From Heliorestis convoluta (GTDB lineage Bacteria > Bacillota > Desulfitobacteriia > Heliobacteriales > Heliobacteriaceae), in assembly GCF_009649955.1 (NCBI RefSeq), contig NZ_CP045875.1, positions 310,001 through 374,000 on the forward strand: a DNA stretch of 64,000 bases. The letters are read 5' to 3'. This document shows, piece by piece, positions 29,104 to 63,528 of the stretch. Numbering within the stretch: position 1 is the stretch's first letter; each line of letters opens with the position of its first letter. The notes under the pieces were generated by a model that did not search any database, was not told the origin of the DNA, and saw nothing but the letters and a program-made list of their open reading frames with translations. The translations under genes and the position numbers were made by a program.

Positions 29104-29286
29104 TGATTTAGCTCCTAGTTTTCTCCATAATATTTTTTATCTTTTCTCTATTCTTCGTCATCATTCTTTTAATACCCTTCTTAACCAATCATGCCCGCTC
29201 GGGCACAACCATTTGATGAAAATAGTTGCCAAGCAAAAACGTCCCTGTGACACACAGGCTTACTTACGATAGAGTAACCTCGTAGA

Positions 29287-29402
29287 GGGGCCAGGTCATC
29301 ACGCTTTCCTCCGCTCTGGACTGGTCCCACGCTGTTACCGCCAGCAAGCTGGCGACAGCTGAGGTCCCAAGTCCCGCTCCGGAAAGCGTGATGCCCTGGC
29401 CC
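29287..29402 (-). repeat. Structured repeat unit A, copy 1
   Basis: Read on the minus strand: outer stem of 22 positions with one mismatch (GGGCCAGG...CCTGGCCC ends), then GGACT/AGTCC, GCTGT/ACAGC and a CGCCAGC/GCTGGCG hairpin with a CTTG turn. Conserved unpaired or lightly paired words shared with unit B: GACCTCAGC and GCGTGGGA. Confidence 0.85.
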
Positions 29403-29527
29403 AGAGGGTTTTTGCTGATTGTTACTCCCGTTGGCATTGCTTTGCGTAACTTTCTTCTATACGCAACTACCTATTGTATTTGCAATGCAATGGGCCAAAA
29501 CTCAGTCACAACCAAGAAGATGTATCT

Positions 29528-29643
29528 GGGTCAGGCGTTATGACTTCCTGGAGAGAGGACTTCAGACCTCAGCCATCGGCAGCTTGCTGCCGCTCATGGC
29601 GTGGGATGAGTCCGTTCGGAAGGAAGTCATAACGCCTGACCCC
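29528..29643 (+). repeat. Structured repeat unit B, copy 1
   Basis: Perfect 21-bp outer stem (GGGTCAGGCG... with ...CGCCTGACCC), inner stems GGACT/AGTCC, GCCAT/ATGGC and CGGCAGC/GCTGCCG with a CTTG turn. Shares GACCTCAGC and GCGTGGGA with unit A while the paired arms differ compensatorily. Confidence 0.88.
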
Positions 29644-37113: not shown

Positions 37114-37289
37114 ACACCCCCTGCCCGTCCGGTCACAACCAGCAACATGTACCTGGGTCAGGGCTTATTCCTTCCTGGAGAGAGGACTTCAGACCTCAGC
37201 CATCGGCAGCTACGCTGCCGCTCATGGCGTGGGATGAGTCCGTTCGGAAGGAATGAATAAGGACTGACCCCACCACAAGGCAACTAATT
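37114..37289 (+). repeat. Structured repeat, short copy 2 (left end plus unit B)
   Basis: Has the same left end as copy 3 (GACACCCCCTGCC, then CACAACCA at 37134-37141) but goes straight into unit B (37155-37270). Unit A and the linker are missing. The junction lies at CACAACCA, the word present twice in the full composites, so this looks like a deletion between short direct repeats. Confidence 0.8.
37155..37270 (+). repeat. Structured repeat unit B, copy 2
   Basis: The outer stem changes to a CTTATTCCTTCC-type sequence while the opposite arm becomes GGAATGAATAAG, preserving most pairing. Inner stems GGACT/AGTCC, GCCAT/ATGGC and GGCAGC/GCTGCC are retained with a TAC loop. This is the copy that best shows covariation in the outer stem of unit B. 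Confidence 0.82.
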
Positions 37290-61637: not shown

Positions 61638-62267
61638 CTACTCATTCTTTTTCGCTTTTTCTTTTTTACTTCCTCTTTTATAGACTTTTTTCTTTTTCAT
61701 TTGAAAAATGTTTCTTCCTGTCAATGCTTCAAAGCGAGCCAACCAACGAGCGACTATAAAAACGACTTCATGACTGTAATTAATTGCAATCATTTTACCG
61801 AGAGATTTGCCACCTACTGTTAAAGCAGCCACAAAACCAGTAATAATAACACCCCAGTAGATCCCTTCAGCCCCAGGCAATTGGGCCAACCGGATGGCGA
61901 TGCTAATGCCTATAGCACCGGCTACAGCAGCAGCAATATCACCAATGACATCATTACAAAAATTGGCTACACGATCGGCATTTCTTACGATCCATAGCGC
62001 TTGTTGAGCGCCTTCTGTTTTGCGCGCTGCTTTGGCATGAAAAGGGATCTCTGTTGCAGCAGCAGCAGAGGTTCCAATCGTGTCAAATAAAACGCCCGTA
62101 AAAATCAATATTAATAAGACAACAATCGACAAAGAGATAGACACCACTTTGCTCAAGACAAAGTCAGAGCCTACTGTAATACCCATGGCAATGAAAAAAG
62201 AAAGCAGACCAATTAAGGCCGCATGACGCGCCGATTGTCGTAAATCTCTAAGTAAACCAGGACCCAA
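61638..62267 (-). CDS. oapA: OLE-associated protein A, membrane protein
   Basis: A 209-residue membrane protein with about four helices (AALIGLLSFFIAMGITVG; VVSISLSIVVLLILIFTGVLF; DIAAAVAGAIGISIAI; GVIITGFVAALTVGG) and a strongly basic tail (MKKKKVYKRGSKKEKAKK). OapA proteins bind OLE RNA and bring it to the membrane. The assignment rests on position directly after the OLE RNA and before dxs, with matching topology and length. The start is TTG 62267, nine bases after GAGGTG; longer frames would run into the RNA. Confidence 0.9.
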   Translation of the reverse strand: MGPGLLRDLRQSARHAALIGLLSFFIAMGITVGSDFVLSKVVSISLSIVVLLILIFTGVLFDTIGTSAAAATEIPFHAKAARKTEGAQQALWIVRNADRVANFCNDVIGDIAAAVAGAIGISIAIRLAQLPGAEGIYWGVIITGFVAALTVGGKSLGKMIAINYSHEVVFIVARWLARFEALTGRNIFQMKKKKVYKRGSKKEKAKKNE

Positions 62268-62299
62268 ATGTATGTTCACCTCAATATAACTACACAAAA

Positions 62300-62921
62300 A
62301 AGATGCCTGAGTAACAGGGTGACAGTCTGCTAAGTAAACTCTATGGCTTAGGTTCGGTAGGCTTTCCCCACCCGGCTCCGACAAGTCACCTTATCGGCGG
62401 TTTCCCTTTATGCCAGGCGCAGTCCTGTCACCAGGGCACTGAACCGAATCACCACTTAGTCCATACTTTAATCCCTAACAGACCTCTTGACAGAACAGTC
62501 TAGGAATTTTCTTCAACAACTCTACCTGTCTCTAGCCTCTTTTGCAGTATTGGTTTCAAGTCGCGGCTCTTCCTCCCTGGCCGGGGAGAAAGCGCCGTAT
62601 CCTCCTATCCGCCAATCCCACTCAAGGCAGGCTACACTGCACCCAGCATGAACCAAATGCAGGTTCTTCCCAAGCCATAGTTTCCTCCGAAAATGGTCCC
62701 GGAGTTCCCCACGTATCTTGGGTCTCCACGGAGGTAGGGTCATCGCCCGCATGCCATTGCAGATCGCCCTATCCCCCTTAACTCCCAGTACCAACCCCCG
62801 ACTGGGCGTCGGCAGCCAGCACCAGGAACTTCATCGATATGCCCTTGACGGATTTTTAGCCCCGCCTTCAAAACAGGAGATGCTGACTAGAATACTGCGT
62901 CACCACATTCAGACATCTTGT
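62300..62921 (-). ncRNA. ole: OLE RNA (ornate large extremophilic RNA)
   Basis: A GC-rich, non-coding stretch of about 610-620 bases, far more structured than its surroundings, directly upstream of the oapA ribosome site. Position between ispA and oapA/dxs, length near 610 and minus-strand orientation match known OLE loci. The 5' end forms CAGACA/TGTCTG; further hairpins include ATACGTGGGG-adjacent stems and the GGTTCTTCCC region. Its start fits the sigma-A promoter at 62928-62956. OLE RNAs form large complexes with OapA at the membrane and are linked to ethanol, cold and magnesium stress tolerance in Bacillus halodurans. Confidence 0.92.
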
Positions 62922-62927
62922 CTGAGT

Positions 62928-62956
62928 ATTATAGCACAAGATCTTGCCACTATCAA
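62928..62956 (-). promoter_or_regulatory. Sigma-A promoter of OLE RNA
   Basis: Minus strand TTGATA, 17 bases, TATAAT (perfect -10, -35 one base off in each of two positions). Start near 62921, at the base of the first OLE hairpin. It lets OLE be expressed independently of ispA. Confidence 0.85.
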
Positions 62957-63100
62957 AAAAAATGCATCTTTTTTGTCTGGTTATATTCTGGGTCATTTCT
63001 CAATACTATCCAATTCGTAGCGGGACACCCCCTGCCTGGTCGGGCACAACCAACGATGAAAATCAACTTTTCCTGATTACGTTGGGGTTACTTCTTGCAG

Positions 63101-63216
63101 GGGCCAGGTCATCACGCTTTCCTCCGCTCTGGACTGGTCCCACGCTGTTACCGCCAGCAAGCTACTGATGCGCTGAGGTCCCAAGTCCCGCTACGGAAAG
63201 CGTGATGCCCTGGCCC
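63101..63216 (-). repeat. Structured repeat unit A, copy 3
   Basis: Outer stem identical to copy 1 unit A (GGGCCAGG...CCTGGCCC). The apical hairpin is damaged (CAGCAAGCTACTGATGCGCTG), which breaks the CGCCAGC pairing seen in copy 1, so this copy may be decaying. Confidence 0.8.
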
Positions 63217-63345
63217 AGAAGGCTTCTACTGATTGTTACTCCCATTGGCATTGCTTTGCGTAACTTTCTGCTATGTTTAAGCAACTACCTATTGTATTTG
63301 CAATGCAATAGGCCAAAACTCAGTCACAACCAGCAAAATCTACCT

Positions 63346-63463
63346 AGGTCAGGCGTTATGACTTCCTGGAGAGAGGACTTCAGACCTCAGCCTTTCACGC
63401 AGCTTGCTGCCGCTCATGGCGTGGGATGAGTCCGTTCGGAAGGAATTCATAACGCCTGACCCC
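63346..63463 (+). repeat. Structured repeat unit B, copy 3
   Basis: Same outer stem family as copy 1 unit B, with one changed pair in the middle (GACTTCC against GGAATTC) and a modified apical region (CCTTTCACGCAGC). GACCTCAGCC and GCGTGGGATGAGTCC are kept. Confidence 0.8.
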
Positions 63464-63528
63464 ACCACAAGGTAGCTATTGCGTGTTAAAGCTCATGTCC
63501 ATAAGAACACTACAGAATCATCGCTGTG

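Follow-up and report, generated by a model that had tools for sequence, protein, structure and literature searches.

OLE RNA is a large structured bacterial RNA that acts at the cell membrane, and its protein partners OapB and OapC are usual, though not universal, in genomes that carry it. In Halalkalibacterium halodurans it is a discrete, abundant RNA of ~630 bases that acts with OapA (PMC9723947); its own promoter, abundance, processing and dependence on OapA are described in the same work and in a second report (PMC9723947, PMC11332333). Cryo-EM has recently revealed that OLE forms RNA homo-oligomers (PMC12286853). The OLE class, its linkage to OapA and the presence of its own promoter are already known from H. 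halodurans; what is new in this work is the comparative context of the Heliobacteriaceae.

The window analyzed here, a stretch of 64,000 nucleotides from the chromosome of the alkaliphilic anoxygenic phototroph Heliorestis convoluta HHT (PMC7143216), carries on its minus strand, in this order, ispA, a repeat element, a promoter, OLE, oapA and dxs. We estimate with a probability of about 95% that this is the ole-oapA locus of H. convoluta, which would be transcribed as OLE-oapA-dxs and whose RNA would enter a particle like that of H. halodurans, the ole-oapA block having most likely been lost in other heliobacteria. The cmscan analysis of the window reported one Rfam match above the threshold, namely OLE on the minus strand at 62919-62303 (617 bases; RF01071, score: 512.4 bits, E-value 2.2e-147, gathering cut-off: 50 bits), which spans the full length of the model (1-616 of 616). 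A preliminary description of this DNA, made from the sequence alone, had assigned about 615 non-coding bases to the OLE class and proposed a search with the Infernal/Rfam OLE model; that search, passed by a very wide margin, bears out both the class and the approximate length. A covariance search of the complete H. convoluta genome (one contig, 3,218,981 bases, ~3.22 Mb) identified OLE as a single copy, and none of 14 control genomes was matched by the OLE model. On either strand, chance frames of ~80-100 aa extend into the region, and no conserved frame was found among them; the size of the OLE score rules out a chance or coding origin of the region. Thus, the window contains a sound, ordinary member of a class that is already known, and Heliorestis is probably listed in the 2024 OLE survey, because that survey used GTDB R214. 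For comparison we used nine Heliobacteriaceae genomes (G000-G008), of which G000 is H. convoluta and G001 is Heliorestis acidaminivorans.

Upstream of OLE we identified a sigma-A type promoter (62956-62928, minus strand), TTGATA-17-TATAAT with a TG before the -10 element, which agrees with the consensus at 11 of 12 bases, as expected from the near-perfect sigma-A promoter announced earlier. In the four closest genomes with OLE, its equivalents are positioned directly before OLE, with a spacing of 17 in G001 and G003 and of 18 in G014 and G016, two genomes from another family of the same class. The claim that OLE possesses its own promoter therefore stands, but this is not peculiar to the locus, as such a promoter has already been reported for the OLE of H. 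halodurans (PMC9723947). The preliminary description also placed the beginning of the first hairpin at the transcription start. Reading of the sequence indeed reveals a small hairpin, CAGACA-AGA-TGTCTG (62924-62910, minus strand), around the predicted start, but that start (~62921) lies inside the hairpin and would cut into it. Moreover, the hairpin is restricted to Heliorestis, being absent from G003, and its bases are unpaired in the Rfam OLE model, outside the consensus pairs.

The oapA gene (62267-61638, minus strand) encodes the OLE-associated membrane protein A of 209 aa and directly follows OLE, where an OapA-like membrane protein had been predicted; its relatives in G001 and G003 (82% and 59% identity, respectively) are likewise adjacent to OLE. 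The predicted ribosome binding site GAGGTG (62282-62277) and the TTG start codon (62267-62265) coincide with those proposed initially, and G001 and G003 retain both the TTG and the GAGGTGA. An in-frame stop inside GAGGTGA ends the upstream frame in G003, so that no start other than TTG is usable there. An earlier in-frame GTG at 62279 was considered and rejected, as it is not conserved and, in G003, does not share the frame of oapA. A TTG start is ordinary for this genome, since 20.8% of H. convoluta genes use it (PMC7143216). Profile matches place ole-oapA between the 3' part of ispA (farnesyl diphosphate synthase; 64000-63529, minus strand, cut by the end of the window; PF00348, E-value 3e-29; NF045485, E-value 1e-58) and dxs (1-deoxyxylulose-5-phosphate synthase; 61595-59643, minus strand; TIGR00204, E-value 1e-264), i.e. 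in the ispA-dxs context that had been anticipated. OapA itself exhibits a weak similarity to the CNNM/DUF21 domain (E-value 9e-4, below the Pfam cut-off), which has already been published for OapA (PMC11332333). The Pfam profile search detected no CBS or CorC match in OapA, and comparison with solved structures returned no match.

Among the nine Heliobacteriaceae genomes, three carry OLE (G000, G001, G003) and six lack it (G002, G004-G008). OapA co-occurs with it exactly, together in three of the nine genomes and jointly absent from the other six, in agreement with the near-complete mutual inclusion of OLE and OapA reported across Bacillota (PMC11332333). All six OLE-negative heliobacteria have a TTG-N17-TATAAT promoter 92-121 bases before the dxs match. 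Given that these genomes keep TTG-17-TATAAT at the same place, what we call the OLE promoter probably drives an operon made up of ole, oapA and dxs. Its apparent homology to the dxs promoter is indicated by position and spacing more than by the letters, a sigma-A promoter being short. The gene order in G003 is ispA, an opposite-strand FHA/trypsin-like gene, OLE, oapA and dxs, while G005 and G002 exhibit ispA, the opposite-strand FHA/trypsin-like gene (identified with Pfam) and dxs, and G004 exhibits ispA, an opposite-strand gene and dxs (according to the ORF layout only). In other heliobacteria (L236, L237, L239), the opposite-strand gene downstream of ispA and ahead of dxs or OLE thus codes for an FHA plus trypsin-like protease protein; in Heliorestis, the gap after ispA contains hairpin elements in its place.

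Most likely, ole and oapA were deleted as one block in the OLE-negative lineages, leaving the old promoter to serve dxs directly. A single ancestral ole-oapA-dxs promoter followed by a clean loss of ole-oapA would be the simplest reading, and we prefer loss over gain because the block is present in neighboring families (a parsimony argument about an undated event). The reverse scenario, in which ole and oapA were acquired by transfer into Heliorestis and G003 and inserted behind an existing dxs promoter, would account for the patchy distribution within the family and for the position of ole-oapA as a clean block between the promoter and dxs. We regard it as unlikely, as OLE is also found near ispA in G014 and G016, with nearly equal scores in that other family of the same class, and the identity of OapA falls with kinship (82% within the genus, 59% to G003), as expected for descent.

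The distribution of MpfA adds a further aspect to the loss of ole-oapA. In the published survey, MpfA is anticorrelated with OLE (PMC11332333). H. convoluta encodes an MpfA-type Mg exporter with the CNNM-CBS-CorC_HlyC architecture (L233:544-1869, minus strand; G000:C1 about 834543-835868; domains checked), and G001 contains two CNNM proteins over the cut-off. The profile search found no CNNM/MpfA protein in any of the six OLE-negative heliobacteria, nor in the OLE-positive G003, whose genome is only 87% complete. One MpfA alongside OLE is within the published range; what is unexpected is that the OLE-negative genomes have none. The pattern comprises nine genomes of one family and serves as a pointer only. 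We tentatively propose, with rather less than even confidence, that dxs was ancestrally served in Heliobacteriaceae by what is now the OLE promoter, that ole-oapA is a removable block controlled by the isoprenoid operon, and that OLE and MpfA are not simple replacements of each other. If the alkaliphilic genus Heliorestis keeps OLE together with MpfA, and other lineages lost ole-oapA while having no MpfA, then a simple mutual replacement does not hold; the Heliobacteriaceae genomes run against the idea that MpfA simply substitutes for OLE. If this is true, the family would offer a natural setting in which to ask what OLE is required for: close relatives that have or lack the complete ole-oapA block at one and the same site, and with known partners, lend themselves to gain/loss comparisons under different conditions of pH, Mg2+, light and energy stress.

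Two further partner proteins were sought in the H. convoluta genome. The OapB homolog (103 aa; between map and infA, chromosome about 2951261-2951572) was missed by the PF00467 profile alone and was located by gene position; its best PDB match is 7k9b, "OLE-associated protein B" (E-value 2.8e-13). The OapC/YbxF homolog (between rpoC and rpsL, chromosome about 2968344-2968595) matches the YbxF structures (3v7e and 4lck, E-value 8e-16). Homologs of all core OLE partners published for H. halodurans are thus encoded in H. convoluta. Could the OLE gene nonetheless be decayed or non-functional, with sequence similarity alone left? The cmscan alignment marks ~25 positions with non-standard pairs, mostly in the variable middle stems, and the outermost ~15 bases at both ends fit RF01071 loosely. 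However, 205 of 220 consensus letters are kept (counting the upper-case, i.e. most conserved, letters of RF01071 in the five main alignment blocks), the match is full-length, OapA, OapB and OapC are intact, a consensus promoter is present, and two related genomes yield good matches with scores of 523 and 525 bits, all of which makes decay very improbable.

We infer the transcription, processing, complex formation and function of the Heliorestis OLE from those of H. halodurans. From the strong sigma-A promoter between ispA and ole, transcription would yield an RNA that begins with ~617 bases of OLE and continues into oapA and dxs. By analogy to H. halodurans, the OLE RNA would then be split from the oapA-dxs message by processing, and it may bind the membrane protein OapA alongside OapB and OapC (YbxF), a kink-turn protein, forming a particle that could support the cell under stresses including cold, alcohols, high Mg2+ and a poor carbon supply. 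The 3' end of OLE lies 35 bases before the oapA start and no terminator was found between them in the region scanned, so that the 3' end would have to arise by processing. The same short distance and absence of a detectable terminator would also suit a non-coding stretch that is mainly a long cis-acting leader of oapA rather than a free RNA, but we give this very little credence, given that the H. halodurans counterpart is a discrete RNA working with OapA (PMC9723947).

The repeat between ispA and the OLE promoter (63033-63480) is a neighbor of OLE and not part of it. It consists of ~450 bases with two hairpins of ~115 bases, inverted with respect to each other and connected by a linker, with the conserved hairpin heads at 63131-63188 (plus strand) and 63375-63433 (minus strand). 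Within the window it is also found at 29281-29640 and 37150-37278. The H. convoluta chromosome contains at least ~41 near-complete copies with 88-93% identity among the matches listed, and a search with the head pattern gave 140 matches genome-wide, against 0 for the reversed pattern. Of the 22 pairs in the 57-base head, 7 exhibit compensatory changes (25 cells vs 8.9 in shuffles). A covariance model of the head identified 13 heads in G001, 5 in G002 and 4 in G006; the other 97 of the 101 genomes searched with it gave no match, which leaves the head confined to Heliorestis, G002 and G006. Below the head, the arms of different copies are hardly related (median identity 32%; 13 hairpins from G001, G002 and G006). 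In G001, pairing of the 5' arm with the 3' arm of the same hairpin exceeded all 200 shuffles in 8 of 8 hairpins; for the A+T-rich arms of G002 and G006 this held in only one of five.

A 53-base repeat is often found before or after the element; this unit (about TTTTCATCAGTGGTTGTGCCCGACCGGGCATGACTGGTTAACACGAAAATAG) is present in tandem and also on either flank of the element, e.g. at G000:C1:809463-809583, 2749786-2749907 and 472487-472607, all outside the window. In G002 and G006, several heads are located 230-310 bases from the start of a contig (L196, L201, L205, L208, L212), which suggests that an adjoining multi-copy repeat breaks the assembly. Since the element is dispersed through the genome and matches no Rfam family even at E-values up to 1, we rejected its assignment to OLE, to a known RNA and to a riboswitch. 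We found no mention of it in the genome paper (PMC7143216), and the family is apparently undescribed. One possibility is a mobile hairpin element that obtains its matching arms anew at every site; others are a structured RNA and a terminator-like element.

Among the closest known systems, that of H. acidaminivorans (L001/L084) shares with H. convoluta the order ispA-OLE-oapA-dxs, the TTG-17-TATAAT promoter, the TTG start and an OapA of 82% identity. The two differ in the ispA-OLE gap, which in H. acidaminivorans contains one hairpin with unrelated arms and in H. convoluta the ~450-base two-hairpin element; the single related hairpin of H. acidaminivorans is located at L084 about 1160-1286, and its arms are unrelated to those of H. 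convoluta. OapA resembles the MpfA/CorC Mg2+ exporters (CNNM-CBS-CorC_HlyC) in its weak similarity to CNNM, but it lacks the CBS and CorC_HlyC domains, and H. convoluta carries a true MpfA-type protein separately. The OLE of H. halodurans (RF01071) corresponds to that of H. convoluta in its full-length architecture, the adjoining oapA, the possession of its own promoter (PMC9723947) and the presence of genes for OapB and OapC. In contrast to H. halodurans, H. convoluta has ole separated from ispA by a hairpin repeat, combines OLE with an MpfA-type Mg exporter (H. halodurans is without MpfA; PMC11332333), and is an anoxygenic phototroph.
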